From assembly GCA_013297885.1 (NCBI GenBank), contig JAAFIR010000011.1, positions 1 through 64,000 on the forward strand: a stretch of 64,000 nt of DNA. The letters are read 5' to 3'. Origin of the DNA: Leptospirales bacterium (GTDB lineage: Bacteria; Spirochaetota; Leptospiria; Leptospirales; Leptospiraceae). Below are positions 3,820 through 58,381 of this stretch, piece by piece (the stretch's first letter is position 1; each line of letters opens with the position of its first letter). Position numbers and translations under genes: made by a program. The notes under the pieces are model-generated. The model saw nothing but the letters and a program-made list of their open reading frames with translations. It was not told the DNA's origin and made no database searches.

Positions 3820-6087
3820 ATGGCTTTTGATATAGAAATGATTAAAGCTCATTACGAAAAATTAGCATCAAGAATTGATGCAGCAAGAAAAATTGTTGGG
3901 CGACCGTTGACACTCACAGAAAAAATTTTATACTCCCATTTATTTGAAGGAAATCCAACAAAAGCATTTGAAAGAGGAAAGTCCTATGTTGACTTCGCTC
4001 CAGATAGAGTTGCTATGCAAGACGCAACTGCTCAAATGGCGTTATTACAATTTATGCAAGCTGGTAGAGCAAAAGTAGCCGTGCCTTCGACAGTTCATTG
4101 TGATCATTTAATTACAGCACAAGTAGAATCCAAAACAGATTTAACAAAAGCAAATTCAGAAAATAAAGAAGTATATGATTTTTTAGCTTCTGTTTCCAAC
4201 AAATATGGAATTGGATTTTGGAAAGCAGGTGCAGGTATTATTCATCAAGTAGTTTTAGAAAATTATGCTTTCCCAGGTGGAATGATGATCGGAACAGATT
4301 CACACACTGTAAATGCTGGTGGACTTGGAATGCTTGCTATTGGTGTGGGTGGAGCAGATGCATGTGATGTCATGGCTGGTCTTGCTTGGGAATTAAAATT
4401 TCCAAAACTAATTGGCATTCATTTAAAAGGAAAACTAAATGGTTGGACTTCTCCAAAAGACGTAATTTTAAAAGTGGCGGGGATACTCACTGTTAAAGGT
4501 GGAACTGGTGCAATTGTAGAATATTTTGGTGAAGGTGCAACTTCCATGAGCTGCACTGGAAAAGGAACCATTTGCAATATGGGTGCTGAAATTGGTGCAA
4601 CCACTTCTACATTTGGTTATGACGAATCTATGGAGCGTTACCTCAGAGCAACAGACAGAGCTGATATTGCAGATGCTGCAAACAAATTTAAAGAGCATTT
4701 AACTGCAGACAAAGAAGTGTATTCAGATCCATCCAAATATTTTGACCAAGTGATTGAAATTGATTTATCAACTCTTGAACCACATTTAAACGGACCATTT
4801 ACTCCAGACCTTGCAACTCCAATTTCAAAAATGAAAGAAGAAGCAGCAAAAAATGGTTGGCCTTTAAAAATTGAAGTTGGACTCATTGGCTCTTGCACAA
4901 ATTCATCTTATGAAGATATTTCTCGTGCAGCTTCTCTTGCTGAACAAGCAGCTGCAAAATTTTTAAAACCAAAAGCAGAATACACAATCACTCCCGGTTC
5001 AGAACAAGTTCGATACACAATCGAACGAGATGGATTTTTAAAAACATTTGATAAGATTGGTGCAAAAGTTTTTGCAAATGCTTGTGGACCTTGTATTGGA
5101 ATGTGGGCAAGAGTGGGTGCTGAAAAAGCAGAAAAGAACACAATTGTTCATTCGTTTAACCGTAATTTTGCGAAACGTGCAGATGGAAATCCAAACACAT
5201 ACGCATTTGTTGGCTCCCCTGAATTGGTAACTGCACTTGCAATTGCTGGAGACTTAGGATTTAATCCACTCACAGATACATTGACAAATGAAAAAGGTGA
5301 ACAAGTAAAATTGGATCCTCCTTCTGGTGATGAACTTCCAAAAAAAGGTTTTGCTGTGGAAGATGCTGGTTACCAAGCTCCAGCTCTTGACGGAAGCAAA
5401 GTTACTGTTGCTGTTTCTCCAACTTCAGATAGACTTCAACTACTAGATTCATTTGCAGCATGGGAAGGAACTGACCTCAAAGGACTCAAACTTTTAATCA
5501 AAGCAAAAGGAAAGTGTACAACAGATCATATCTCAATGGCTGGTCCTTGGTTAAAGTATCGCGGTCATTTGGACAATATTTCAAACAATATGTTAATTGG
5601 TGCAATCAACTTTGCAAATGAAAAAGCTGACTCTGTAAAAAACCAACTCACTGGTGCATACGAATCAGTACCAAAAGTTCAACGTGCCTACAAAGCTGCA
5701 AAGATCGGATCAATAGTTGTGGGTGATGAAAATTATGGAGAGGGCTCGTCAAGAGAACACGCTGCAATGGAGCCTCGTTTTCTTGGAGTGCGTGCAGTTC
5801 TTGTAAAAAGTTTTGCTCGTATTCACGAAACCAATTTAAAAAAACAAGGAATGCTTGGACTCACTTTTGCAGACAAAGATGACTACAACAAAATTCAGGA
5901 AGACGATTCAATCGACATTCTTGGACTCACTAGTTTTGCAGAAGGAACTCCACTGACGATTGTGCTAAATCACAAAGACGGTTCTAAAGATGAAATCAAA
6001 GCAAACCACACATACAACCAAGCTCAAATCGAGTGGTTCAAAGCTGGAGCTGCTCTAAACATCATCAAAGCAAACCAGAAAAAATAG
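3820..6087 (+). CDS. acn: Aconitate hydratase, mitochondrial type
   Basis: Interconverts citrate and isocitrate through cis-aconitate in the TCA cycle; cytoplasmic 4Fe-4S enzyme. The 755-residue length and sequence fit the mitochondrial-type aconitases (mature ACO2 size), not the longer bacterial AcnA or AcnB. The three cluster ligands are seen as Cys359 ([10 protein letters not shown]) and Cys422/Cys425 ([10 protein letters not shown]), spaced as in the family. [11 protein letters not shown] near residue 90 and the swivel-domain [19 protein letters not shown] near 640 carry substrate-binding residues. The start at 3820 is preceded by a GGATGG-like site. It stands alone, with repeat copy 1 upstream and copy 2 three bases after its stop. 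Confidence 0.95.
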
Positions 6088-6090
6088 TTT

Positions 6091-6212
6091 GGGCGATTCA
6101 TCATTCGGCTTCGACTAATACTGATTAGGCGAAGCCGAACGATGACCGAGCTTTTCGCTCTTGTCAAAATTTTGCATTTGCAAAATTTTGACACCGCTTC
6201 AATCTCTATCGC
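6091..6212 (-). repeat. Dispersed three-arm repeat, copy 2
   Basis: On the minus strand. Outer helix GCGAT (5', 6212-6208) with ATCGC (6097-6093), then CC. Inner GAG of AGAGATTGA pairs with CTC of GAAAAGCTCGG, unlike the GGG/CCC of copy 1. The first arm is GTGTCAAAATTTTGCA and complement; the second arm is CGGCTTCG with CGAAGCCG, loop containing TAATCAGTATTA. Its 3' end lies three bases from the aconitase stop. Confidence 0.8.
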
Positions 6213-6247
6213 ACTGTGTTGGGGAATTGGGTTTGGGGTTGTAAATA

Positions 6248-26299: not shown

Positions 26300-28459
26300 A
26301 TGGAAAGAAAACAAATTATCCCAAACACAGAAATCGAAAAATTTGCCCTTGAAATAGATGCAATTTATTCTGATGCAAAATCAAAAGTTGGTATGGAAGA
26401 TTTAGAGCATATCAAAAGCATTGCAGATCTTTCAAAAACTCTAGAACAGACAGGTAGAACTTTGATCCATGTTTCTTCTGACCCAGTAACTTGGGGTGTG
26501 GGAGTTTTGGCTCTTGGTTATCATTATCTTTTGGAATTTACTGAGCTTGGTCATAATATTTTACATGGTCAATATGATTCAATCCCCGGTAACACAGAAG
26601 TAACCTCTACAAATTGGATCTGGGATAATACTATGGATGAAGAAGATTGGAAATTTGAACACCATATGGTTCATCATCCTTTTACAAATATAATTGGTAA
26701 AGACAATGATTTTGGTTTTTTGGTTTATAGAGCAAGTGCTGAACAAAAATGGAGACTTTATCATTTATTTCAATTACCTTTGATTACCCTTCAGCCATTA
26801 GTAAATACTTTTTTCTTTCCTTGGTATGTTGCAACATCGAGAGCTTTATCTGAATCTAGAGATGTTTATAGTTTACAAACTTATCTTCCTGCTTTAAAAA
26901 AATTAACTGAACATTTTTTTAAAAACTATATCTTGTACCCTTTGATGCCCGGTGCAAGTTATTCAAAAGTAGCCTTAGGAAATTTTTTAGCAAAACTGTT
27001 TCAGAATACATATCTTGAAATGATTCTAGCAATTTCTCATCTTCACAAAGAAGCATACACATTTCCTGATTCAGATGGAGAAACAAAAGGAGAATATTAC
27101 TTAAGACAAATTTTATCAACTTGTAATTTTGAATCTGATAGAGATACAATTTATCATATTGTTTATGGTGGAATCAACACTCATATTGAACATCATCTTT
27201 TTCCAGACCTTCCACCAAATCGATTGAGAGAAGTTGCTCCAAAAGTGAAAGCAGTTTGTGATAAATATTCTATTCCTTATCGAAACGGAAGTTTTTTTGG
27301 TCAATTTTTTGAAGTTATACAAAATGTAATTATCCATTCATTTCCAATTGAACCATCAGATAATGGAGATATTTTTTCTTTATTTCAAAGACCTGCAGTT
27401 TTGTTTGATCGAATTAAAAAAGGAACGGAAAGAATGTTCAGTATTTTTAACCAAGATGAATATTCTATTTTTAGTGAATCTAAAATTTTACATATTGAAA
27501 AATTAATTTCAGGGGATGCAATTTCAGTTTCCTTAAAAGTTCCAACTGATTGGGAAGTAGCTTCTTGGAAAGAAGGCTCGTATATTTCGATTCAATTAAA
27601 TGTAAACGGAAAAAAAGTAATTCGTCAATATTCATTAACAAAACCAAGTCTTGTTTCAGATGAGCTTCATATCACAATTAAAAAAGTTAAAAATGGTTTG
27701 TTTTCTAATTTTGTAATAGAGAATCTAAAAGTAGGAGACAAACTGAAAATTATTGGAAAACCAAAAGGTGATTTTCATTTAATTGAATCGAATTTACAAA
27801 AAGTTTTTATTGTTGCAGGTGTGGGTATCACTCCAATTTTAAGTATGATTGAAAAATTAAATTTTGATAAAAATTTAAAATCTGCTACTTTAATTTATTT
27901 TAATATCGCTCCTGAAAAAACTTTGTATAAAAATGAATTAGAAAGTTTTTCCAAAAAAGGTCTTAATGTAAAATTTTATTTTGATTTTTTAAACAAAGAA
28001 AATGAAAAAGAAAATTTTAAAGAAGAAAAATTCTCCAAAAAAATTTTTGAATCATTAGATTTAACAAATTCTGAATTTTATATTTGTGCACCTGAATCAA
28101 TGATTGAAGAAACAAGATCAATTCTAAAAGATTTTAGTGTAAAAAAAGAAAATATTCTTTCTGAAAAATTTTCAGCTACTAAAATTTTAAAAACCAAAGA
28201 AAGAGAAAGTATCACTCATAAATTAATATTAGCAAAATCTAATAAAGAAGTTATGATTAATGAAAACACTACTCTTCTTGAAGCAATTGAATCTTGTGGA
28301 ATTGAAATCACATCTGGTTGTAGACAAGGTCTTTGTAAATCTTGTCAGGTTCAAAAAAGATCAGGAGTTCATGAAACAAATGAAATTGAATATGCAATTC
28401 AAAATAGAATCACTACTTGTAATGCAGTTGCGAAATCTGACTTGATTTTAGATATTTAA
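26300..28459 (+). CDS. Self-contained fatty acid desaturase: desaturase, FAD/NAD reductase, 2Fe-2S ferredoxin
   Basis: 719 residues in three parts. Residues 1-370 are a membrane fatty-acid desaturase with the three His boxes: HNILH (near 85), HHMVHH (near 121), HIEHH (near 294). Residues about 395-635 form a ferredoxin-NADP-reductase fold: RQYSLTKP binds FAD, and VFIVAGVGITPILSMI starts the NAD part. Residues 645-719 are a plant-type ferredoxin, CRQGLCKSC plus a last Cys in ITTCNAV. Electrons would pass from NAD(P)H to the di-iron site within one chain. No Shine-Dalgarno is visible; the leader is very short. Controlled by the divergent TetR gene. Confidence 0.85.
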   Translation: MERKQIIPNTEIEKFALEIDAIYSDAKSKVGMEDLEHIKSIADLSKTLEQTGRTLIHVSSDPVTWGVGVLALGYHYLLEFTELGHNILHGQYDSIPGNTEVTSTNWIWDNTMDEEDWKFEHHMVHHPFTNIIGKDNDFGFLVYRASAEQKWRLYHLFQLPLITLQPLVNTFFFPWYVATSRALSESRDVYSLQTYLPALKKLTEHFFKNYILYPLMPGASYSKVALGNFLAKLFQNTYLEMILAISHLHKEAYTFPDSDGETKGEYYLRQILSTCNFESDRDTIYHIVYGGINTHIEHHLFPDLPPNRLREVAPKVKAVCDKYSIPYRNGSFFGQFFEVIQNVIIHSFPIEPSDNGDIFSLFQRPAVLFDRIKKGTERMFSIFNQDEYSIFSESKILHIEKLISGDAISVSLKVPTDWEVASWKEGSYISIQLNVNGKKVIRQYSLTKPSLVSDELHITIKKVKNGLFSNFVIENLKVGDKLKIIGKPKGDFHLIESNLQKVFIVAGVGITPILSMIEKLNFDKNLKSATLIYFNIAPEKTLYKNELESFSKKGLNVKFYFDFLNKENEKENFKEEKFSKKIFESLDLTNSEFYICAPESMIEETRSILKDFSVKKENILSEKFSATKILKTKERESITHKLILAKSNKEVMINENTTLLEAIESCGIEITSGCRQGLCKSCQVQKRSGVHETNEIEYAIQNRITTCNAVAKSDLILDI

Positions 28460-45232: not shown

Positions 45233-46399
45233 TTATACTAAATCAAATGAAATTTCTTTTTTGATTTCACCGTTGATTTGGATTAATAATTTATGTTCAC
45301 CTTTGTATAAAGTTCTAGTTGTCATTTCAGCTTTCATCAAATGTTTTTTTTCTATTTTTATTTTTTTATTTTTTTCTAATTTTAAACTTTTTAGTTTAAA
45401 TACTTTTTTTGAATTTAATTTACCAGATTTATTTTGAAAATAAATGATATAATCAATTACTAAATCTGAATTTTTTAAACTAGTTATATCAAATGAAAAT
45501 TCTAAATAATTATTTAATTTTACTTTTTTTGTAAAAGTAAATTTTTCAAAAGTAATTTTTGTATTATAATCAATTCCTAAATATTTTAACGTAGGTTTAT
45601 GTCCTTCTTTGACTAATGTTCTGAGTGAGTGTTTTGTGATAAATTCTAGTTCTTCACTTGTTTGTTTTTTATTTTTCTTATTTTGTTCAGACCAATTTTT
45701 TAAAGTTTCCAAAACAAATTCTGAATCTAATTTAGAAATATCATTTAGATGATTGGCTACTGATCGAGTGACAAATCTAGTTTTATCAAAATACAAATTA
45801 TTTAAAATAGAAATTGGTTCTTTATAATTTAAAATAATTTTTTGTGACCAAGGAAGTCTTGGCCTTGTGCCTTCAGAGCATAATCTTCTAACATGATAAT
45901 TTTTATCTTTTGACCAAATGAATAATTTTTTTAATGTTTGTTTTGGGAATTGATTTATAAAATACCTAATTGAATCTTCAGCAGAAAATCTTTTTGTAAT
46001 TTCATATAAAGTATTTAATGAAAAATCTAAATTTATTTCTTCCAAACCATTCCTCACAACAAATTCACTATAAGGAGCATAAATAAAATCACCAAAATCA
46101 TCATCTGTTTTTGTTGGGTCAAGTTCAGGTGGTAAAGATTTTAAAAGAAGTTCAACAGATTCTTGATAATTTAATTTGCTCTTTGTAAAATACTTCTTAA
46201 AATTTTCAGCTATACAAATAATTCTATCTTTTAATTCTAATTTTGGAAATTCATTTAAAATATCTTTTATAAAATTTGCTTTATCAAAATTGATTTTTTT
46301 TAATTTACTTGCTTCAAAAATTGCATTTGCTATCATTTCTACTTTTTGTTGGTTGAATAAATGATCTTTTAAGGAGAATTTTTCGTTTGTGGTTTTCAT
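45233..46399 (-). CDS. DNA alkylation repair (AlkD-like HEAT) protein
   Basis: 388 residues. The middle is typical for AlkD-like HEAT-repeat glycosylases: WSKDKNYHVRRLCSEGTRPR then LPWS, VTRSVANHLNDISK, and ITKHSLRTLVKEGH. Such proteins remove alkylated bases. The last 100 residues (beta-rich) also occur in longer family members. It starts 10 bases after the second lipoxygenase stop, with an AGGAAC site, so it belongs to that operon. Confidence 0.8.
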   Translation of the reverse strand: MKTTNEKFSLKDHLFNQQKVEMIANAIFEASKLKKINFDKANFIKDILNEFPKLELKDRIICIAENFKKYFTKSKLNYQESVELLLKSLPPELDPTKTDDDFGDFIYAPYSEFVVRNGLEEINLDFSLNTLYEITKRFSAEDSIRYFINQFPKQTLKKLFIWSKDKNYHVRRLCSEGTRPRLPWSQKIILNYKEPISILNNLYFDKTRFVTRSVANHLNDISKLDSEFVLETLKNWSEQNKKNKKQTSEELEFITKHSLRTLVKEGHKPTLKYLGIDYNTKITFEKFTFTKKVKLNNYLEFSFDITSLKNSDLVIDYIIYFQNKSGKLNSKKVFKLKSLKLEKNKKIKIEKKHLMKAEMTTRTLYKGEHKLLIQINGEIKKEISFDLV

Positions 46400-46408
46400 A
46401 TTTTGTTC

Positions 46409-48196
46409 CTAAATATTAATCGACTGGGCGATTCTAGAAGGAAGAAAACCTTTATAAGGAAATTTCCCTTCATTACGAGTTTTTATTAATTTTTCAGCTT
46501 GTTTTAAATTTTCATTAAATTTATTTAAAGCCTTATTTACTTTAGAGTCGCTAAACCAAAACATTGGATATCTTCCCAATTTCTTATACAATAATCCACC
46601 AAGGGTATAACCTAAATTTAATTGTAAAGATGCCAAATCTAGTGGTGGCAACATAGCCAACCAATCTTCTTCAGAATATTTTTGTTTCTTTTTAGGCGCT
46701 TTATCATAAAGTCCAATTGGTACTTGTGGTGCATAAATCATTACATCTCTTTGCGGATTATTAATTGCTGAATGGCTTGCAGTTGCAGTAAAAATGATAT
46801 GAGTTAAAGCTTTTATTAAATAAGAAATAGAATTTATTTTTCCTTTTCCATCTTCACCAAAATTATTTACTCTTCCTCCTGCATAATTACTTAATTCACC
46901 ACACCAAAGTTTTAATTCAGTATCATTAAGTAGTTCTTTATTACTTGGATAATAAATTTTTATATATTCTTTTACCCAATTTCGAATTAATTCCCAGATC
47001 ACTAAACCATCATCGCGAAATGGATAATAAGGCAATAATTCTTTATCTTTTACTTTTCTATTTTCTAGGTCTACAGGAAACATGCTATCATTAAAAGCAT
47101 TTGATTTGGTTGCTTTTAAAGATACTTGTTTACTTGATTGAATTGTTCCTGATAATAAATGTTCTACTCCACCACCAGGTGCAATTAAATCTTTTCGAGC
47201 AAAATAGTTTATAAAAATAGTTCCATAAAAATGTGGAATTAAAAGTTTATAAATTGGATGTCGATTGGAGAATTGTCTATAAGTTGAAATGATAATTGGC
47301 TCTAAGAATAAATGTGTTTTTGCTAAATGAGCAATAAGTTCATGATGATTTCCATCTGCTGAGTTTACAACAGCTTTAGCCATTTTCCAACCCCAAGGAT
47401 CAGATAATGGAGTAAATAGAGAATGTTCTTTTGGATTTTGATCACATTGAATTGCAATTGGACGAAGAAAACGTTTTCCTTGAGTGAGAGCAAATAAAGC
47501 AATTGGAGCATAAACATATTTTTGTTGTCTTGGCTGATCCCCATTTTTTAAATCAGAAAGAGCTTGGTAATTTGTAATAAATAATCTTGATTCTTGTATC
47601 GCTTTAGATAATTTATCACCATTAAATTCTGGTATAGAAGAAAAAATAGAATCAGTAATTGGAAAATTATTTGGAATTTTTTTTATACCTTCTATCACAG
47701 TTGGATTCCACCCAGCAACTCTCATCCTAGCAAAATTTTCATCTGTATCAAAATCACGATTTAATTTTGGAATTCCAATTTTTAAAAAAAGTTTATTATA
47801 ATCTTCCAATTTTAAAGCTTTACCGGGTTTAGTATAACGCTGAACATATTTACCAGAATAAATAAAAAATTTAGTAGGACTTTTTATAAATAGCATTGTA
47901 AAAAGTCTTCCAATCATTTTGAGACGAAAAATAAATGGAACTAAAATTCTATCTACACTCCAAGCAGTATTTTCACTTACGGCTAAAGAATTTCTCAATA
48001 ATCTAATTCCTATTTTAGCTAAAAGATATAACCATTTTAATTTTGGATATTCTTTTGTTGGTACTTCATCAATAACAGGATGAGATGGAATTAAATTATA
48101 ATTATATCTATAAAGTGTTCTAGTTTTATTTAAATTCATTTCTCTTTTTATAGAATCTTTATCAAATTGAGGTAAGCATATTTTTAAGTTTTTCAT
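46409..48196 (-). CDS. Lipoxygenase 2
   Basis: 595 residues, PLAT-less mini lipoxygenase. Inserts O2 into polyunsaturated fatty acid to give a hydroperoxide. All five non-heme iron ligands fit the family: His285 and His290 (HELIAH), His475 and Asn479 (SHSAIN), and the C-terminal Ile595 (QSINI). Flanking signatures THLFLEPIIISTYRQ and RHPIYKLLIPHF are nearly plant-like. The N-terminus has no signal peptide, so it acts in the cytosol. Paired with the P450 that ends seven bases upstream. About half identical by eye to lipoxygenase 1. Substrate and regiochemistry cannot be deduced. Confidence 0.92.
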   Translation of the reverse strand: MKNLKICLPQFDKDSIKREMNLNKTRTLYRYNYNLIPSHPVIDEVPTKEYPKLKWLYLLAKIGIRLLRNSLAVSENTAWSVDRILVPFIFRLKMIGRLFTMLFIKSPTKFFIYSGKYVQRYTKPGKALKLEDYNKLFLKIGIPKLNRDFDTDENFARMRVAGWNPTVIEGIKKIPNNFPITDSIFSSIPEFNGDKLSKAIQESRLFITNYQALSDLKNGDQPRQQKYVYAPIALFALTQGKRFLRPIAIQCDQNPKEHSLFTPLSDPWGWKMAKAVVNSADGNHHELIAHLAKTHLFLEPIIISTYRQFSNRHPIYKLLIPHFYGTIFINYFARKDLIAPGGGVEHLLSGTIQSSKQVSLKATKSNAFNDSMFPVDLENRKVKDKELLPYYPFRDDGLVIWELIRNWVKEYIKIYYPSNKELLNDTELKLWCGELSNYAGGRVNNFGEDGKGKINSISYLIKALTHIIFTATASHSAINNPQRDVMIYAPQVPIGLYDKAPKKKQKYSEEDWLAMLPPLDLASLQLNLGYTLGGLLYKKLGRYPMFWFSDSKVNKALNKFNENLKQAEKLIKTRNEGKFPYKGFLPSRIAQSINI

Positions 48197-48202
48197 AATT
48201 AT

Positions 48203-49585
48203 CTATTCATCTAAAACAATTTTTCCTGTGACAGTCTGTGGCATCATCACTCCAAAAAAGAATCCTTGCACATAATTAGATTTTAAATCAGGTTCAAATC
48301 GTGCAATAGAATAAAATGATGCAAGTGTTAGTTTTATGTTTATTAAAGCATAAGACATTCCCATACAGGCTCTAGGTCCTCTGCCAAATGGAAAAAAATA
48401 ATCACTTCCGTATGGGTTATTAGTTATAACATCTTTTGTCCATCTTTCAGGGTTAAACTCTAATGGATTTTCCCACCTAACATCAGAATGATGAAGAGCA
48501 TAATTGGAAATAAGTATTGGTGTATTAGGTGGAATCCTATTTTTACCTAGCTTGACAACTTTGCTTTTAGAAGAATTTCTTAAATACAATGGAACAGGTG
48601 GAAAAATTCTCATTGATTCACGAACAACTTTATCAAGAAAACTCATCTCTTCAATTTCTTTAAAAGTAATTTCGTTATCTTTATTAAAAGTTTCTTTTAT
48701 TTCAAGTTTTAATTTTTCTTCAAAATGTTTATTTTTAATTTGACTAAGTAACCAAATGGCTGTGACAAGAACACTTGTTACAGAATATACTCCACCATAA
48801 AAAACATTTGCTAAATTAATTGCAGTCCCTTTATCTGAATATTTTGAACCACTTGCAAATATCCAATTAATTAAATCTGATGAATTTGGATTTGGATTCG
48901 ATTCAACTTCTTTGACTAGTTTAGAAAAATAAGAAAACCATTTTCTTCTTTTCCAATAAAAAAATACACTAGGAATATATTTTGGCACAAATAAGGATGT
49001 TAAACGATCAGCTCCAACTTTTCCCATATAAGTAAAAATATCATATATTGATTCTGGTAAAATTTTTCCAGAAACGGAAATTGAAAAAGAATCAAAAGAC
49101 ATTTTTTGTATTGTGTGGGTCAAATCTAAAGATTTCTTTGAAGAAAATTTTGCTAACCCATTAGTTCTAAGTTTTATTGATTCTTTCAAAATGAGAACTT
49201 GTTGAGAAATCCATTTTGGTGACCAAGGCGAGCTAAATGAATCTGAATCTCTCATTGATTTCCAAGCTGGTGGATTTGCTAAAAAAGGACTATAAGAAGT
49301 AATAACTGGTTCAAGTGCTTTTTTGGGTGAGTCTTTATAATAATCTGTCCAATTCGTTTCTAAAACTTCTCTAAACAAATCTGGAGAGTTAATTATTAAA
49401 TGTGGACTTGAACCAAACCAAACCAAACATATTTCACCATAATTTATTGAAAAACCTGCAATTGTTTCCCAAGGATTTTCACCTACAAAAGATAATAAAT
49501 TTCCCAAAGGAAAAGAAGGAGACGGTCCAGAAATGCCATTAAATTCCGCTATCTTCGATTTATTGATATATTCAAATAATCCCAT
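48203..49585 (-). CDS. Cytochrome P450 2, probable hydroperoxide-using
   Basis: 460 residues. Heme-thiolate Cys407 in FGRGPRACMG; ExxR as E323-S-M-R326; ERW near 380. The I-helix reads YGGVYSVTS at 263-271: the acid and threonine used for O2 activation (AGxD/ET) are replaced by Tyr and Ser. Such loss is typical for P450s that rearrange peroxides (CYP74, prostacyclin/thromboxane synthases). Full-length with a normal Cys loop, so not CYP74 itself. It lies 205 bases after lipoxygenase 1 and directly before lipoxygenase 2. Cytosolic; no reductase partner is encoded nearby. Confidence 0.88.
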   Translation of the reverse strand: MGLFEYINKSKIAEFNGISGPSPSFPLGNLLSFVGENPWETIAGFSINYGEICLVWFGSSPHLIINSPDLFREVLETNWTDYYKDSPKKALEPVITSYSPFLANPPAWKSMRDSDSFSSPWSPKWISQQVLILKESIKLRTNGLAKFSSKKSLDLTHTIQKMSFDSFSISVSGKILPESIYDIFTYMGKVGADRLTSLFVPKYIPSVFFYWKRRKWFSYFSKLVKEVESNPNPNSSDLINWIFASGSKYSDKGTAINLANVFYGGVYSVTSVLVTAIWLLSQIKNKHFEEKLKLEIKETFNKDNEITFKEIEEMSFLDKVVRESMRIFPPVPLYLRNSSKSKVVKLGKNRIPPNTPILISNYALHHSDVRWENPLEFNPERWTKDVITNNPYGSDYFFPFGRGPRACMGMSYALINIKLTLASFYSIARFEPDLKSNYVQGFFFGVMMPQTVTGKIVLDE

Positions 49586-49790
49586 TTATATTCTCATTAT
49601 TACAAAACTATTTTTTGAGTTTGATTAGAATAGATTTTTAATTGATAATATCATTTCTCAATTGTAAATAGTTTATATTTTATATTTTGTTAAAATATTT
49701 TTAAAATCAAATCTTTTATTTCATAAAAATTCTTTTAATTACTAATAACATGCAATAGGGTTTTCTTTTTCTAGTCAAGTAAATTTAAAC
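49586..49790 (-). promoter_or_regulatory. Intergenic gap between the two P450-LOX pairs
   Basis: This is the only sizeable gap within the cluster. On the minus strand it begins with a TTGACTAGAAAAA motif (around 49780-49768), close to TTGACTAAAAAAA upstream of the cyclase gene (58502-58490), which may be a shared -35/activator site. A TTTACA hexamer lies further down. A second promoter here would let the two pairs be expressed apart. Confidence 0.3.
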
Positions 49791-51572
49791 CTAAATATTA
49801 ATCGACTGGGTCAGTCGCGATGGTAACATATAAGGATAAGGAAATCTATTTCGATTTCTTTCTTCAATAGTTTTTTCAACTTCTTTGAGCTTGGTTTGAA
49901 ATTTTTGAAGAATTGGTGAAACTTCTTTTGAAAAAATATTTCCATATTGACCTAAGCTAGTATAAAAAACACCACCAAGAGTATAACCAAGATTTAATTG
50001 TAAAGAAGCCATATCTAGAGTTGGCATCATAGAAATCCAATCTGCTTCAGAATATTTTTTCTTTGCAAGTGGAGCTTTGTCATAAAGACCAAGTGGAACT
50101 TCAGGTGCATACATCATCATTCCTTGTTGAGGAAAATTTACAGATGAATGACCAGCACTTGCAATAAAAATTATTTCAGTAATTGCTTCGATGAGATAAT
50201 TTATAGTTGTGAGTTTACCTTTTTTATCTTCACCAAAATCTTTGACTCTTCCACCTTGTTCAGATGCAATTTCTTTTGCCCAAAGCTGAATTTCTTCATC
50301 ATTCAAAATATCTTCATTTGAATTATAATATAGTCTAGCATAATCATTTACCCAAGATTTAATTGTTTCCCAAACTAACATTCCATCATCACGATAAGGA
50401 TAGTCTGAAATAATTTCTGGATTTTCAATTTTTCTTTGTTTGAGAGTATTAGGAAATGCTAATTCATTAAACCCTCTTTTTAAATGATTTTGAATAGATA
50501 CAATCGTATCAGACTCTATTGTTCCTGATAACAAATAATCTACTCCACCTCCTGGTGCAATTAAAGCTTTTTTAGCTAAATAATTTATAAAAATAGTTCC
50601 ATTAAAATGTGGAATTAATAATTTATAAATTGGATGTCTTGAAGAAAGTTGCCTATGAGTGCTTACAATAAATGGCTCAATCACTAAATGAGTTAAACCT
50701 AGATGAGTGATTAGTTCGTGATAATTTCCATCAGCAGAATTTACAACTAGCTTAGCCATTTGCCAAGACCAGTAATCTGACTTTGGTGTAAAAATGGGAA
50801 ACATATTGCTGTCTTGTCCGGTTTGAATTGCTAATACTTTTAGTAATTCAGAATCTTTTGGTTTAGCAAAAATTGCAATTGGAGCATAACAAAATTTTTC
50901 TCCATTTGGTTGAAAACCATTTTTTAAATTATCTAAATCTTTATAATCTAGAATGAATAATCTATTTTCTTTAGAAAGTTTTGCAATTGAATCATTTTTA
51001 AATCCATCAATTTCTTTTAAAAGTTTATCTGTAAAAGCAATATTTTTTGGAAGTAAATTTATTTTTTCTATTAAGCTTGGATTCCAACCAGCAAGTCTCA
51101 TCCTAACAAAATTTTCATCTGTCATAAAATCTCTGTCAGCTGTTGGAATTTTAATAGAAGCAAACAATTCATTATATTCTTCAAGTGAAATTCCTTCACC
51201 TGGTTTTAAAAATTTAACTATGTATTTTCCTGCACTAATGAAAAAATTAGTTGGGTTAGTGAATAAATAAAATAAAATTTGAATAAACATTTTGACTCTA
51301 AAAGAAATCGGAAGAATAAATTTACTAAATTTAGATTTTATATCCACTTTGGAAGCAATTGAGTTTTTTATTAGCCTAGCACCAACTCCAATTAATAAAA
51401 AGATCCATTTTAGTTTTGGATATTCAAATTTTGGAACACCATCAACTATAGCAAGAGGAGGAATTATATTATAATTAAAACGATAATCATTTCTTGCTTT
51501 TTCTAATTCTTTTTTTCTTGAATTTAAATATCTATCATTAAAAGGTAATGATGTTTTATTAAAGTTGAACAT
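49791..51572 (-). CDS. Lipoxygenase 1
   Basis: 593 residues, same build as lipoxygenase 2. Iron ligands His285, His290 (HELITH), His475, Asn479 (GHSSVN) and C-terminal Ile593. THLVIEPFIVSTHRQLSSRH and PIYKLLIPHF are classic. No PLAT domain and no signal peptide. It follows its P450 by 19 bases and has a TGAGGA site. The two lipoxygenases keep identical numbering up to residue 500, so the duplication is clear and both copies appear active. Differences (GNYHELITHLGL against GNHHELIAHLAK) may alter substrate or position of oxygenation. Confidence 0.92.
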   Translation of the reverse strand: MFNFNKTSLPFNDRYLNSRKKELEKARNDYRFNYNIIPPLAIVDGVPKFEYPKLKWIFLLIGVGARLIKNSIASKVDIKSKFSKFILPISFRVKMFIQILFYLFTNPTNFFISAGKYIVKFLKPGEGISLEEYNELFASIKIPTADRDFMTDENFVRMRLAGWNPSLIEKINLLPKNIAFTDKLLKEIDGFKNDSIAKLSKENRLFILDYKDLDNLKNGFQPNGEKFCYAPIAIFAKPKDSELLKVLAIQTGQDSNMFPIFTPKSDYWSWQMAKLVVNSADGNYHELITHLGLTHLVIEPFIVSTHRQLSSRHPIYKLLIPHFNGTIFINYLAKKALIAPGGGVDYLLSGTIESDTIVSIQNHLKRGFNELAFPNTLKQRKIENPEIISDYPYRDDGMLVWETIKSWVNDYARLYYNSNEDILNDEEIQLWAKEIASEQGGRVKDFGEDKKGKLTTINYLIEAITEIIFIASAGHSSVNFPQQGMMMYAPEVPLGLYDKAPLAKKKYSEADWISMMPTLDMASLQLNLGYTLGGVFYTSLGQYGNIFSKEVSPILQKFQTKLKEVEKTIEERNRNRFPYPYMLPSRLTQSINI

Positions 51573-51591
51573 TTTTTTTCCTCAAATTATT

Positions 51592-52998
51592 TTATTTGGA
51601 ACTTTCAGGATTAAATACTATTTTACCATTTAATCCTTTTGGCATCATTACACCAAAATGAAATCCTTGCAGATAGTTTGCATCAGCCTCTGGAATAAAC
51701 TTGAAATTTTTATAAAAACTAGCAAGAGTTGTTCTCATATAAAGTAATGCAAATGGTTGACCCATACAAGCTCTGGGACCTTGTCCAAATGGGAAAAAAT
51801 AACCACTACCAAACGGGTTTTGTTTGATTACTTCATCAGTCCATCTTTCTGGAATAAACTTTAATGGTTCTTTCCAATGTCCAGCGTCATGGTGCATTGC
51901 ATAATTGGAAATTAGAATAGAAGTATTTTTTGGAATTTTATGTTCACCTAAAAATACATAATTAATTGTAGATGAATTTCTAGAATAAAATGGAACTGCT
52001 GGATAAAGTCTCATCGATTCTCTTAAAACTTTTTCTAGATATTTTAATTCTTTCAAACTTTCTTCAGTGAGAGTTTTCTTTTTATCAAAAAAAGTTTTTA
52101 ATTCATGTATTAATTTTTCTTCATAAATTTTATTTTCTTTTTGGGATAATAACCAAACTGTTGTAGCTAAAGTACTTCCAACAGAATAAACTCCTCCATA
52201 AAATATTGCAGCTGTGTTTGCAGTTAAATCTTGTCCTGCTAAATGTACACCTTTTATTGTTCCCCAATTAATAATATCAGTTGCAAGTGGATTTGGACTG
52301 TTGGCTGAAGATGTAATTAAATTTTCAAAATATTTAAACCATTTTTTCCTTTTTAAATAGAAAAATGGATTTAATATAAAAGAAAGTATAAATGGATTTG
52401 TTAGTCTAATAGAACCTGTTTTTCCGAGAGATACAAATAGATCATATATTTCAGTTGGAAATAGTTTACCAGCAACTGCTAGCGAAAAAGCATCAAATGA
52501 ATATTTTTGAAAAGTTTCAGTAAGATCAACTGAATCTGATTTTGTTTTTTCAACTAATTCACTATTTCTTAATTCACCAAATTCAGAAAATACATTAACT
52601 TGTGCTGCAAGCCAATCTGCAAACCATTCAGAACTAAATGGATTATTTGCTCTCATCTGTTTCCAAAAAGGTTGGTTTGCAATAAATGGAGTATATTTGG
52701 AAATTGTTGGGGTTAATTCTTTAATTGGTGAAACTTTATGGTATTCCAACCAATCAGTTATCAAAACATCTTTAAAAAATTCAGGTGAGTTGATAACAAT
52801 CTGTGGACTAGATGCAAACCATAAAACAGAAATTGGTCCGTAATTTTCTGCAAGAGATGCAGTTACAAACCAAGGTTGTTGTCCAAATAAAAGATTTAAA
52901 TTTCCAAGTGGGAAGCTAGGTGGAGGTCCAGGAATTCCTTGAAGTTCAGAAATTTTTGATTTATTAAAAAAATTAAAAAGTTTATTTAGTAATCCCAT
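51592..52998 (-). CDS. Cytochrome P450 1, probable hydroperoxide-using
   Basis: 468 residues. Cys411 in FGQGPRACMG, E327-S-M-R330, ERW at 384-386. I-helix YGGVYSVGS at 267-275 with the same loss of acid and Thr as its paralogue. Starts MGLLNKLFNF at 52998: an upstream frame to 53022 exists, but this ATG has a GGGG site and lies one base after the cyclase stop (53002-53000). The N-terminus, with hydrophobic patch then PGPPPSFPLGN, is like class II P450s but without a real membrane helix. Confidence 0.88.
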   Translation of the reverse strand: MGLLNKLFNFFNKSKISELQGIPGPPPSFPLGNLNLLFGQQPWFVTASLAENYGPISVLWFASSPQIVINSPEFFKDVLITDWLEYHKVSPIKELTPTISKYTPFIANQPFWKQMRANNPFSSEWFADWLAAQVNVFSEFGELRNSELVEKTKSDSVDLTETFQKYSFDAFSLAVAGKLFPTEIYDLFVSLGKTGSIRLTNPFILSFILNPFFYLKRKKWFKYFENLITSSANSPNPLATDIINWGTIKGVHLAGQDLTANTAAIFYGGVYSVGSTLATTVWLLSQKENKIYEEKLIHELKTFFDKKKTLTEESLKELKYLEKVLRESMRLYPAVPFYSRNSSTINYVFLGEHKIPKNTSILISNYAMHHDAGHWKEPLKFIPERWTDEVIKQNPFGSGYFFPFGQGPRACMGQPFALLYMRTTLASFYKNFKFIPEADANYLQGFHFGVMMPKGLNGKIVFNPESSK

Positions 52999-52999
52999 A

Positions 53000-55900
53000 T
53001 TATCCCCATATTTCAGAACCAATCCAGTTTGAAGCTGGAGGAACGTTTAAATAGATTTTAGTGTATTTCAAATACCTTTCACTTACTTTATCACTAGGCA
53101 AGAATAATAAACATTCTTCTAATAAAATTTTTGCTTTTTCAAAATTTCTTTTATAAAACAAAGAAAGTGCTTCTTCAAAAATTGGTTTTAATTTTAACTT
53201 TTTAGTGAATAATTCTTTTTCATCTCCGTCAAATACTTCATACAATAAAATTGGTTTATCTTTACCTTTAATTTTTACAAATCCAATTTCTCTAAAATGA
53301 AAACTTTGTTTAAACTGGATTCCTGAATACACAGAATCAGAAATTAATATATTAGTTCCAACTAGTTTAGTCATACTTTCTAATCTACTCGCAAGATTCA
53401 CTGCATCTCCAATGACAGTTGTATCTAGTCTACTTTTTGAACCGATAGTCCCAAGCATTACCTCTCCAGTATGTAGTCCAATTCCAAATTGAATATCTTC
53501 AAAACCTTTTTCTCTTCTATATTTATTTAAAACAGCAAGCTCTAATTTCATTTCAATACAAGCAAGTAATGCTTTAGTTGGGTCAGAAGGAAATAATGCC
53601 ATAATAGCGTCCCCAATATATTTATCTATAAAACCTTCATAGTTTTTAATAATTGGTTCCATTCTTTCCATATAAGAATTTAAAAATTTAAAATTATCTT
53701 TTACATCCATTTTTTCAGACATACCTGTGAAATTTCTTAAATCAGAGAAAAAAATTGTCATCTTGTGACGCATAGCATCTCCAACTGAAATTTCTTGGAT
53801 AGATGTTTTTCCTAAATATTCTAAAAATTCTCTTGGTACAAATCGAGAAAAACTTTCAGCCATTATTTCCATTTCACCATATATTTTTGCATTATTATAT
53901 GAAATCGCAATTTGAGATGAAAGCATATTTAATAAATCAACTCTTTCCCCACTCAAGGCACCTTCAGCTAAATTATTTTCTAAATAAATAATTCCAAATA
54001 ATTTTGAATGAAATAAAATTGGCATACATAAAATGGATCTAGTATTATTTTTGGAAATATAATCATCAGTTTTATAAATTGGATGAGAGTTAGCATTTTG
54101 AATTACTAATGTTTGTTTAGTTCTAATAACATAGTTCACAACAGTTTTTGCAAAACCATCACTTTCATCAATTGGGATATTGATTTCAACTTTAGATTCT
54201 TCAGTATTTAAATCCGTACTTGCAACCAAAACAAATGAATCTTTTTCATTTACAAAAAAATAAGCTCTTTCTGCACCAGCATTTTCAACAAGTATATCAA
54301 TCATTTTTTGTAACAAAGAATTTAATCTAATTTCTCCAGAAAGAACTTGAGATGATTTTAATATTGTAGAAAGATCAAGTATTTTAGAAGCAAAATGCAT
54401 TTCGGTTGTATTTCCAAATGGATTACTATCTTTTTCAAATGTCAATGTTCTATTTTGGTTTTCATTTCTTTTAAATTGAATAAAAGATTTCCATTTTTCT
54501 TCAAATAATTTTACTTTATGAATCGCTCCCCATCTCTCAAATCCATAATAAGCGTCAGTTAAATAGGTTTTTGCAATTTTAATTCTATTATTTGTTGAAT
54601 AGTATTTTCCTGCTAATTCATTTGAAATTGCCTCATTTACTGAATAACCTTCTTTTTTTGCATTTATTATTGACTCATCATATAATTTTTCAGCTAAAAA
54701 AAACTTTTCTTGTATTCTTGCAATTTCTGCTTCTATTAGCAATGATTTATGTAAAAAATTTGAAGGTGAGGCTTTTGCCCATTTTTTTAATAAAGAATTA
54801 TTTTGTTTTATTTTTCTTAGGTATTTTGATTTCATTTTTGGATTTTTATCTAATAAAGCGGCAAGTGTTAAACTATAAAAATAATTTTGTTCAGCTGTAA
54901 TTACACAAGCAAAAGAATACACCATTTTTTCTTCTGCTTTTTTTAACATTTCTAAAGCTTTTTCATATTCACCATAAAAATAATAAGTCTTTGCTTTATT
55001 GGTATGATACCAATCCATCTGACCTTGACCTTCAAGATTGATTTCTCTTGCATATTGATCTTCATCAAAATCATTAGTTGAAAAAGAAAATTTATTTTTT
55101 GTTTTACCAGCTAAATTCAACAGGAAATAATTCATGGATAACATTAAAGTCCCGATCCATCTATCTTTAACTTGTTTCACAACATAATCAGTATATTTAG
55201 AAATTATTTTATGAGTGTCATCAATACTCTCGCCAAGCGATACTAATTTAGAACAATACTCTACAATTGAATAACAAGAATAAATATTATCTCCAGTTTC
55301 ACGAGCAAGTCGGAATGATTCTAAAGAATAATCAAAAGCATCTTTTGAATGTTTTGTCCAACCATAAACAAAAGTTCCCATTGCAAAATTTGCTCTACAT
55401 CTTTGGCTTAATGAATTAAAACGATTGGACAAATTAATTCCTAGGTGTCCAAACTTTTCCCCAGCTTCAAATAAACCTAACTTAGATCCAACTAAAGCAG
55501 CATAAAGTCCAAACATATAAGCAGAGTAATCAGTAACACCATGTTTAAGTGCAAGATGAACACCTTTAGTTACAACAAATGCAAATAAATTTTGATTAGT
55601 TCCATATGTTGGAGAAGTTAAATGATTTAATAATCGAGCAACCATTTTAATTTCTTCATCTTTCACTTCAGGCAAGTTTAATAAATCTTCAATTTTTCTT
55701 GACCCTTTAGTAATTGTTGCCTTAACAACTTCAAATAAGACTAAAGGTAAAGGAACAAAACTTGGTAAATTAACCCCAAATAATTTTAATCCTTCTCTAC
55801 CTAAGTCAACAGCTTTTTGTAATTCATTTTTATTTGCATATTGAACAACTTGAATTTCATAAACCCGACCTTTATCCAAATTTGAATTTGCATTTGCTAA

Positions 55901-58381
55901 AATTTCTTTAAATAAAATTTCAGATTCTTCAAATTTACCACAAATATAAGCACATTCTGCTTTTCGTATTGAGGTGTTATATGCTAATTCATAATTTGTT
56001 TTCCACATATCTATGAGAAAAATTTTTGTTGCATTTTCTAAAAATTTAAATGCAGAAGGGTAAGCTCCAGAATTCTCAGCAATTTTTGCTACTTCTAAAT
56101 TAAGCTCAATTAATTCTAAAATTTCTTTTTTTGAATCAATTAATTTAGAAGCATAATTCAAATGATTTACAATTGTAACTAAATCTTCTTTTGATTCTTT
56201 TTTTGTTTTAGATTTAGATTTAAGACTCTGAAATAGAAAATATCCAATTTTTTTATGTACGATCTCTTTTTCTTTTTCTTCTAATAATTGATACGCTGAC
56301 TGTTGAACTCTATCGTGTAAAAATTTAAATTGAATTTTATCAAAATTTATTTCATAAGACTCATTATGTATCAAAGTTTGAAGCTCAGAAGAAGAATCTC
56401 CTTTTACTTCAATAAATCCTTTTGGTAATAATTGCCATATCGTTTTTAAAATATCTGTGCTTGTTTTTTCTGAGGTTAAAATTAAATCTTGTAGAGAAAA
56501 CAACCCTCCTAGGCATGATGCATGTTTTAGAATTTCAATTTCGTTTATTTCTAAAGTTTTAATTTTATTTACTAAAAGATCGATAACATTTGAAGTAATT
56601 GATTTTTCTTTAATTTGAATTTCATTCCAAACCCACTTTGATTCATTTGAGTCAAACTTTAATAGACTTTCAATTGTTAAAGATTTTAAAAATTCCCCAA
56701 CAAAATATGGGTTGCCATTTGTTTTTTCCATAACTAAATTTGAAAGTTCAAATACTTCTTCTTTTTTTCTTTGTATAGAATCAGAAATTAAATCTAAAAC
56801 ATCTTCATGTATTAATGGGGAAAGAATTATTTTTTTTGGGGGAAGTTTTAACTTTTCTAATTGTTCGATTAAATTTGTTAGGGGATGAAGCATGTCAACT
56901 TCATTATCTCGAAATGCTCCAATTATCATTATATTATTTGCTTCTAAATCAGTAACTAAATACTCTATCAAATCCAAACTAGAACTATCAGCCCATTGTA
57001 AATCATCTAAAAATAATGCAAGAGGTTGATCTTTTTTTGTTAAAGAGCGAATAAATAAACGAAAAGTATGATTAAATCTATTTTTAGTTTCTAATGGTGA
57101 TAGTTCAGATAGTGGTTCTAGATTACCCATAATCAATTCTAATTCAGGAATCACTTGATTGATTAAGGATGCATTTTTTCCAAATGAAGAATTAAATTTA
57201 TCTTTCCATTCTTTAATAATACTCTGTTCTTTTGAAAGTATTTGTTTGATAAAATTTCTACATGCACCAAGAATTGCACTAAATGGAATATCTCTTTGGT
57301 ATTGATCAAATTTACCTGATAAATAAATTCCTCTTTTTTCAGTAACAGGTTTTTGCAGTTCATTAATAAGTGCAGATTTTCCAATACCAGAATAACCTCC
57401 GACTAGAAGAAAACTTACAGAACCTTGAGAAACTTCTTCATATGTATTTAATAAAACTTCTATTTCTTTTTCTCTTCCATAAAGTTTTTCAGGAATTTTT
57501 AAATCACTTGAAATATCTTTTTCTGCAATGGAAAAATCTTTAATTTCTTTAAAGTGTTTTAGATCATAAAAACATTTTTCTAAATCATAAATAATCCCAT
57601 GATGAGTTTTATATCTATCTTCTGGGGATTTTGCCATAAGTTTTAAAATAATTTTGGAAATTACTTCAGAAGTTTGAGGTTTTATTTTATGTGGAGGTTC
57701 TGGGTTTCTAGCAATATGAGAGTGAACTAATTCCATTGGGTCATTTGATTCGAATGGTTTTTTAAAAGTAATTAATTCGTAAAATACAATTCCCAAAGAA
57801 TAAAAATCACTTCTATAATCAACCGTGCGATTCATTCTTCCTGTTTGTTCAGGAGATAAATAAGACAAACTTCCTTCTAATTGGTCAGGACTTTTTGATT
57901 CAGTATTTTCTTTATTTAATAGAGTAGATATTCCAAAGTCTGTAATTAAAACTCTTCCAGTTTTTGGGCTTATTAAAATGTTTTCAGGTTTTATATCTTT
58001 ATGAATAACATTTGAACTATGAATGTCTTCTAAACTTTTACACAACTTTATTAAAATTTTTATTATAGTTTTTGTACTAAAATTTCCTTTGTTATTTAAT
58101 TCTCTTAATGAAACACCACCAAAATCTTCTGATACTAAAATAGGAAGATTATCAACTAATTCAAATCCTAAAGCTTTTGTGATTCGATGAGAATTAATTT
58201 TTTTATTTATTTCAAATTCTTTTTTTAAATTTGCTGTTTCAGATTTTGAAACAAATTCACCTGAAGGAATTTTTAAAATAATCAGTTTTGAATCGGATTT
58301 TCTTCTTCCTTTAAAAACTAAGCGATTGTTTGTCCTATAAATTTCTTTTAAATTATCGTATTCAGTAAAATGAACCATCAT
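53000..58381 (-). CDS. Ser/Thr kinase - AAA ATPase - GAF - adenylate/guanylate cyclase
   Basis: 1793 residues, cytosolic. Kinase (1-275): Lys37, HKD at 127-129 (VIHKDIKPENIL), DFG at 148-150. AAA/STAND-like ATPase: Walker A GYSGIGKSALINE near 332, Walker B ALFLDDLQWAD near 455. A long helical TPR-like stretch spans 700-1300. GAF domain about 1350-1500. Class III cyclase from about 1525: metal Asp in FFSDLRNFTGM and KYIGDAIMALF, then GDAVNLASRLESM with the Asn-Arg pair. Leptospires and cyanobacteria have such multi-domain proteins. Its stop is one base from P450 1, so it probably senses and controls the lipid-oxidation genes. Cyclic nucleotide type cannot be told. Confidence 0.88.
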   Translation of the reverse strand: MMVHFTEYDNLKEIYRTNNRLVFKGRRKSDSKLIILKIPSGEFVSKSETANLKKEFEINKKINSHRITKALGFELVDNLPILVSEDFGGVSLRELNNKGNFSTKTIIKILIKLCKSLEDIHSSNVIHKDIKPENILISPKTGRVLITDFGISTLLNKENTESKSPDQLEGSLSYLSPEQTGRMNRTVDYRSDFYSLGIVFYELITFKKPFESNDPMELVHSHIARNPEPPHKIKPQTSEVISKIILKLMAKSPEDRYKTHHGIIYDLEKCFYDLKHFKEIKDFSIAEKDISSDLKIPEKLYGREKEIEVLLNTYEEVSQGSVSFLLVGGYSGIGKSALINELQKPVTEKRGIYLSGKFDQYQRDIPFSAILGACRNFIKQILSKEQSIIKEWKDKFNSSFGKNASLINQVIPELELIMGNLEPLSELSPLETKNRFNHTFRLFIRSLTKKDQPLALFLDDLQWADSSSLDLIEYLVTDLEANNIMIIGAFRDNEVDMLHPLTNLIEQLEKLKLPPKKIILSPLIHEDVLDLISDSIQRKKEEVFELSNLVMEKTNGNPYFVGEFLKSLTIESLLKFDSNESKWVWNEIQIKEKSITSNVIDLLVNKIKTLEINEIEILKHASCLGGLFSLQDLILTSEKTSTDILKTIWQLLPKGFIEVKGDSSSELQTLIHNESYEINFDKIQFKFLHDRVQQSAYQLLEEKEKEIVHKKIGYFLFQSLKSKSKTKKESKEDLVTIVNHLNYASKLIDSKKEILELIELNLEVAKIAENSGAYPSAFKFLENATKIFLIDMWKTNYELAYNTSIRKAECAYICGKFEESEILFKEILANANSNLDKGRVYEIQVVQYANKNELQKAVDLGREGLKLFGVNLPSFVPLPLVLFEVVKATITKGSRKIEDLLNLPEVKDEEIKMVARLLNHLTSPTYGTNQNLFAFVVTKGVHLALKHGVTDYSAYMFGLYAALVGSKLGLFEAGEKFGHLGINLSNRFNSLSQRCRANFAMGTFVYGWTKHSKDAFDYSLESFRLARETGDNIYSCYSIVEYCSKLVSLGESIDDTHKIISKYTDYVVKQVKDRWIGTLMLSMNYFLLNLAGKTKNKFSFSTNDFDEDQYAREINLEGQGQMDWYHTNKAKTYYFYGEYEKALEMLKKAEEKMVYSFACVITAEQNYFYSLTLAALLDKNPKMKSKYLRKIKQNNSLLKKWAKASPSNFLHKSLLIEAEIARIQEKFFLAEKLYDESIINAKKEGYSVNEAISNELAGKYYSTNNRIKIAKTYLTDAYYGFERWGAIHKVKLFEEKWKSFIQFKRNENQNRTLTFEKDSNPFGNTTEMHFASKILDLSTILKSSQVLSGEIRLNSLLQKMIDILVENAGAERAYFFVNEKDSFVLVASTDLNTEESKVEINIPIDESDGFAKTVVNYVIRTKQTLVIQNANSHPIYKTDDYISKNNTRSILCMPILFHSKLFGIIYLENNLAEGALSGERVDLLNMLSSQIAISYNNAKIYGEMEIMAESFSRFVPREFLEYLGKTSIQEISVGDAMRHKMTIFFSDLRNFTGMSEKMDVKDNFKFLNSYMERMEPIIKNYEGFIDKYIGDAIMALFPSDPTKALLACIEMKLELAVLNKYRREKGFEDIQFGIGLHTGEVMLGTIGSKSRLDTTVIGDAVNLASRLESMTKLVGTNILISDSVYSGIQFKQSFHFREIGFVKIKGKDKPILLYEVFDGDEKELFTKKLKLKPIFEEALSLFYKRNFEKAKILLEECLLFLPSDKVSERYLKYTKIYLNVPPASNWIGSEIWG

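Follow-up and report, generated by a model that had tools for sequence, protein, structure and literature searches.

Two lipoxygenase (LOX) genes, each with a P450 gene in front of it, stand one pair after the other in this Leptospirales genome, and the question that they raise is whether the two enzymes of a pair act in sequence and, if so, what the P450 does with the product of its neighbor.

Organization of the locus

In the window, by which we mean the whole stretch of 64,000 nt that was analyzed, on a contig of 129.8 kb from a genome of 4.6 Mb that is 99.99% complete, six co-directional genes follow each other head to tail on the minus strand in the order KIN–P450A–LOXA–P450B–LOXB–HEAT, separated by 1, 19, 205, 6, and 9 bases. 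The four central genes, P450A (51592 to 52998, 468 aa), LOXA (49791 to 51572, 593 aa), P450B (48203 to 49585, 460 aa), and LOXB (46409 to 48196, 595 aa), are complete open reading frames, and the span from 46409 to 52998 runs exactly from the ATG of P450A through the stop codon of LOXB. Complete frames with every catalytic residue in place rule out a pseudogene or a degenerate copy. The genome codes for two LOXs and four P450s in total, and P450A and P450B are its only members of the LOX-linked P450 family.

KIN (53000 to 58381, minus strand), which ends one base before P450A starts, codes for a protein of 1793 aa in which Pfam recognizes a Ser/Thr kinase, AAA, TPR, GAF, and a class III nucleotide cyclase, and which is a probable sensor or regulator. 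At the other end, a HEAT-like gene (45233 to 46399, minus strand; 388 aa, borderline DNA_alkylation match) starts 9 bases past LOXB and is probably cotranscribed with it. The spacer between modules A and B (49586 to 49790, minus strand) is AT-rich, and no terminator-like site was found inside its 205 bases; a promoter and terminator scan gave no more sites than shuffled sequences. Elsewhere in the window, on the plus strand (26300 to 28459), there is a 719-aa fusion of a fatty-acid desaturase, an FAD/NAD reductase, and a [2Fe-2S] ferredoxin, possibly a self-contained desaturase. Genes of the desaturase family are thus present in the genome, the formation of 1,4-pentadienes by their products being only putative.

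Lipoxygenases with an intact iron site

Both LOXs match the Pfam family PF00305 far above its cutoff of 23.6 bits (236.4 and 228.8 bits; E values of 8.7e-70 and 1.7e-67) and share 52% identity. The first-pass annotation had credited them with every iron ligand, including the C-terminal Ile, and the P450s with the heme Cys, and we confirmed both statements: the ligands are H290, H295, H475, N479, and the C-terminal I593 in LOXA numbering, and LOXB matches all five. The predicted model of LOXA (pLDDT 88) has the lipoxygenase fold, with TM scores of 0.85 to 0.89 to the solved bacterial LOXs 4g33, 8x8f, and 5med. Pfam detected no PLAT domain in either protein.

At the positions mapped as the Coffa, Borngraeber-1, and Sloane sites by reference to soybean LOX-1, human ALOX15, and PMC6612559, the window LOXs carry Ala, Gly, and Leu-Leu, respectively. 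Because the Coffa site is Ala, their products are probably S-hydroperoxides. The Gly at the Borngraeber-1 site, a residue that the Myxococcus fulvus 12S-LOX shares (PMC6612559), and the Leu-Leu at the Sloane sites do not settle the predicted position of attack. The catalytic domain and iron ligands are those of the LOXs of Enhygromyxa salina (8x8f), Pseudomonas aeruginosa (4g32), and Cyanothece (CspLOX2, 5med), and of MXAN_1744 and MXAN_1745 of Myxococcus xanthus; these LOXs have been studied as isolated enzymes, whereas those of the window are paired with a P450.

P450s without the dioxygen-activating residues

P450A and P450B, which are 51% identical, are clear members of PF00067 (E values of 9.7e-55 and 2.2e-51). 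They keep the ExxR motif as ESMR and a heme-Cys loop of the form FPFGxGPRACMG (FPFGQGPRACMG in P450A and FPFGRGPRACMG in P450B). The predicted model of P450A (pLDDT 77, medium confidence) has a normal P450 fold. What sets them apart, unnoticed in the first reading, is the I-helix. The ordinary P450s of the same genome read AGHETTS at the place where the LOX-linked ones read GGVYSV (GGVYSVGS in P450A, residues 268 to 275, at 52174 to 52197 on the minus strand by alignment and reading frame; GGVYSVTS in P450B), so that in P450A the acid position of the AGx[ED]T motif is occupied by Tyr271 and the Thr position by Ser272. Neither the acid nor the Thr of this dioxygen-activating pair is present in any of the 53 family members (0/53 for each), whereas both are present in all 10 ordinary P450s of the comparison set, two of them from the host genome. 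The family has Phe (37), Tyr (7), Thr (4), Val (2), Arg (2), or Trp (1) at the acid position and Ser (51) or Asn (2) at the Thr position; the LOX-linked outliers L135 and L136 read AGTRNV.

The missing acid/alcohol pair fits P450s that use hydroperoxides (PMC10813956; PMC13049297), without naming a product. CYP74 enzymes, whose I-helices are altered, need neither O2 nor redox partners (PMC10813956), and thromboxane synthase, prostacyclin synthase, and the fungal LDS, EAS, and AOS are likewise self-sufficient (PMC13049297). It is unlikely, in our estimation, that P450A and P450B are conventional monooxygenases that would hydroxylate or epoxidize the product of the LOX, or the alcohol to which it is reduced, using O2 and redox partners encoded elsewhere. 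Such an activity is compatible with the canonical heme loop, with the ExxR motif, and with the Ser at the Thr position, which still supplies a hydroxyl, and the nearest solved folds (CYP3A, CYP97, CYP46, and BM3) are all monooxygenases; yet the acid is absent from 53 of 53 family members while being kept by the ordinary P450s of the same genomes, and a redox-partner gene is not a recurring feature of the loci examined, none being seen beside the window pair or in the loci of Leptospiraceae and Acidobacteriota.

Rather less probable is a peroxygenase of the CYP152 kind, in which a lipid hydroperoxide would serve to oxidize a second substrate or would simply be detoxified. CYP152 fatty-acid peroxygenases are bacterial P450s that use peroxide and not O2, P450A does match their model weakly, and in the sister species an AhpC/TSA-like gene lies downstream of the pair. 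Nevertheless, membership of CYP152 is ruled out, with a score for P450A of 34.9 bits against an NCBIfam equivalog cutoff of 600 (NF053744; P450B is not among the matches listed for this model) and an I-helix, GGVYSV, devoid of the Arg-Pro of that family, and detoxification leaves unexplained why a dedicated P450 should trail a LOX across phyla.

Comparison with known dioxygenase-P450 systems

A parallel with the plant CYP74 pathway had been drawn at first sight, and part of it stands. As in the plant and metazoan enzymes of the CYP74 clan (AOS, HPL, DES, and EAS), a LOX is followed by a P450 whose I-helix has lost the monooxygenase residues. This is a resemblance and not a membership: when the window P450s are aligned with CYP3A7 and with ordinary P450s, they lack the nine-residue heme-loop insert that defines CYP74 (PMC10813956), and both sequence and Foldseek comparisons give CYP3A-type enzymes as their closest relatives of solved structure. 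They also differ from CYP74 in their canonical FPFGxGxRxC loop, in their fold neighbors, and in being encoded with their partners in a bacterial operon.

With thromboxane synthase (CYP5A1) and prostacyclin synthase (CYP8A1), the proposed likeness is the isomerization, with no redox partner, of a peroxide received from a dioxygenase; the partner of these enzymes is the heme protein COX and here a non-heme LOX, and thromboxane synthase retains a Glu, with Ile near the Thr position (AGYEI, PMC13049297), whereas the window family has no acid. In the fungal fusions (linoleate diol, epoxyalcohol, and allene oxide synthases), dioxygenase and P450 are likewise physically coupled, but the dioxygenase is a fused heme enzyme, while in the window the LOX is non-heme and encoded by a separate gene, and the P450 I-helix lacks the central Asn. 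Two putative thromboxane synthases of M. xanthus, MXAN_0683 and MXAN_2304, are described as inactive when tried in the passages of PMC5760719 consulted, which list no LOX-adjacent P450. A dioxygenase coupled to a self-sufficient P450 is a known kind of system; what looks new is its bacterial setting, this family of P450s, and the neighboring signaling genes. In the open-access literature that was searched, we found no published bacterial LOX-P450 operon and no paper on a lipoxygenase of Leptospira or the Leptospiraceae.

An old duplication kept in one genome

That the two modules arose by tandem duplication, as first proposed, is borne out by phylogeny. The P450 tree (built with a careful method) and the LOX tree (built with a quick one) agree: module A groups with the pairs that the sister species have in single copy, and module B falls outside, with the topology (B,(A,(sisters))) and support values of 97/94 and 94, respectively. 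Placing the proteins in such trees had been called for as a check, and the congruence of the two implies that the P450-LOX pair was duplicated as one unit. A recent duplication in this strain is ruled out by the identity of 51 to 52% between the copies and by the position of B outside A and the sisters in both trees. On the evidence of the two trees, the module was duplicated before the genus split, and copy B is kept only in this genome as far as sampled.

The three sister genomes of the same genus, all of them Leptospiraceae MAGs (UBA2033, 336R, and Go_SlAct bins), each have a single P450-LOX pair, its two genes about 20 to 30 bases apart. As only four genomes of it were available, the genus is presumably not Leptospira. 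The pairing is thus found in all four sampled genomes of the genus, a recurrence that argues against chance, and within the Leptospiraceae it is restricted to that genus as sampled, since the genomes of four other genera, one sampled per genus, have no LOX. The expected rarity of LOXs also held for the spirochaetes: of 393 genomes in the phylum, 5 have one, namely the four of this genus plus one more.

LOX-P450 pairing across bacteria

The pairing is no peculiarity of spirochaetes. A genome scan yielded 64 bacterial LOX loci, among which P450s of the window family (class 1) adjoin the LOX in Leptospiraceae, in an Acidobacteriota MAG (L029, in the order LOX-MCP-P450), in an unclassified bacterium (L045, LOX-P450-kinase/AAA), and in Acaryochloris (L050). 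A profile of this P450 family (A3), which gives 288 to 675 bits for members and at most 135 for other P450s, had matches in 48 of the 195 Myxococcota genomes searched and in 4 of the 386 cyanobacterial ones; in 294 Planctomycetota, it matched only Gemmata, with no adjacent LOX. Among the Myxococcota copies, 46 of 50 are found downstream of a same-strand LOX match, no more than 200 bases away, about 95 bases separating the two profile matches; of the others, two are 5 kb from a LOX and two are not near one. LOXs are present in 47 of the 48 Myxococcota genomes that have the P450 and in 10 of the 147 that do not, counts to which we attach no P value because the genomes are related. LOX-P450 pairing is therefore present in at least four phyla: Spirochaetota, Acidobacteriota, Cyanobacteriota, and Myxococcota. 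Among the genomes sampled, the tandem duplication alone sets this one apart.

The partners of the family belong to deeply separated LOX clades, mini-LOXs and PLAT-LOXs, the PLAT domain being carried by the partner in Archangium. Spread of the P450 family on plasmids was considered and rejected, PLSDB holding no close match (the best-covering hits are below 30% identity). A second class of P450, unrelated to the window family, is found right behind the LOX in 16 cyanobacterial loci (L025, L026, L027, L030, L031, L032, L033, L035, L036, L039, L041, L043, L044, L046, L082, and L084). These proteins have about 449 aa, an AGTAGTS I-helix, and an ERACPG heme loop with no PFG, and it is they, and not the window family, that come closer, although weakly, to CYP152.

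That LOX and P450 serve separate pathways and are merely coregulated, the LOX being, for example, a secreted host-directed or membrane-modifying enzyme, as the secretion of the P. aeruginosa LOX could suggest (Vance 2004, cited in PMC5760719), is very improbable given their congruent duplication, the nearly fixed order and spacing in Myxococcota, and N-termini in which we could see, by eye, no obvious signal peptide.

Several other arrangements came up in the scan. In a myxobacterium with no detected LOX (L139:5354-8868), a divergent member of the family follows a 729-aa fusion of a P450 with two cyclic-nucleotide-binding domains. A very divergent LOX-like gene (L103:3227-5290, minus strand; about 690 aa, 32 to 38 bits to PF00305) has counterparts near the LOX-P450 operon in most Myxococcota genomes that contain the operon, usually in divergent orientation. 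Behind the LOX of a Nitrospinia genome come a DUF4123 gene and one for a large uncharacterized protein (L024:9959-16009). Since DUF4123 is often associated with effectors of type VI secretion, the LOX could itself be secreted as cargo.

Signaling genes beside the pair

The first reading had left out the sensor and signaling genes of the neighborhood. Large genes of the KIN type (kinase-AAA-GAF, some with a cyclase) adjoin a LOX or a LOX-linked P450 in several phyla (L016:320-5746, L018:11110-16464, L075:2384-8929, L076:11404-16482, L137:9637-15033, and L138:9925-15357). They are found by distant LOXs in genomes G217 (L016/L077) and G190 (L018/L063), in a beta-proteobacterium (L075, where the genes overlap), and in a Lysobacterales MAG (L076), as well as near cyanobacterial LOXs and adjoining the P450 in two myxobacteria. 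At L016, a gene for a small SnoaL-like protein (5727-6224, minus strand) lies between the distant LOX and the KIN-type gene. MCP-type chemoreceptor genes adjoin the LOX-P450 pair in two phyla (L014:4491-6689, with matching genes in L015 and L017, and L029:11813-13459); in the sister species, the pair is followed by the AhpC/TSA-like gene and then by the MCP-type gene, whose product is hydrophobic in its N-terminal part and contains a QMHGLMEMHFFFF stretch there.

Full-length KIN-type genes are numerous, about half a dozen in the host genome and more in its relatives, and for this reason each single adjacency is weak evidence. From some 6 to 14 copies per genome, we infer a chance adjacency of roughly 0.3 to 1% per locus; of six LOX loci sampled outside the Leptospiraceae duplicates, three have a KIN-type gene beside them, which exceeds the chance expectation, although the pattern was noticed post hoc. 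KIN as a pair-specific component is untenable by itself, given these numbers and the MCP gene that is present instead in the three sister species. Sensor genes beside many loci are a hint of a signaling role.

A proposed oxylipin pathway

The reading of the locus as an oxylipin operon is upheld as the best one, the I-helix pointing independently to hydroperoxide chemistry. We consider it fairly probable that this is a duplicated two-enzyme operon in which the hydroperoxide made by the LOX would be rearranged by the P450 with no need of O2 or a reductase. Judging from its family and intact ligands, the non-heme iron LOX would first add O2 to a polyunsaturated fatty acid to give a hydroperoxide. 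The adjoining P450, as its linkage and altered I-helix suggest, would bind this hydroperoxide in its heme pocket, cleave the O-O bond, and rearrange the substrate, using neither O2 nor NADPH nor a redox partner, to release an oxylipin such as an epoxyalcohol or a diol. The single likeliest product would be an epoxyalcohol formed by homolytic cleavage, a doubtful choice even so. Modules A and B, as diverged copies, probably differ in substrate or in position of attack. The third step is the weakest: the oxylipin may be a signal, with the kinase-GAF-cyclase protein KIN sensing the product or controlling its production.

More broadly, and tentatively, LOXs with a family of hydroperoxide-isomerizing P450s and often a sensor may constitute a bacterial system of oxylipin signaling in at least four phyla, of an origin independent of CYP74 and of CYP5/CYP8, in which a second, unrelated class of P450 takes the same place in filamentous cyanobacteria. 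To the question of what bacterial lipoxygenases do, a dedicated P450 directly behind the LOX across phyla adds a likely second step. The question would become testable in the laboratory strain M. xanthus if the pair is present there as it is in its relatives. The LOX-linked P450s would also offer a clean family in which to probe the role of the acid/alcohol pair of the I-helix. If the proposal is true, these bacteria would represent another independent origin of the dioxygenase-plus-P450 logic that lies behind jasmonates, thromboxane, and the fungal oxylipins.
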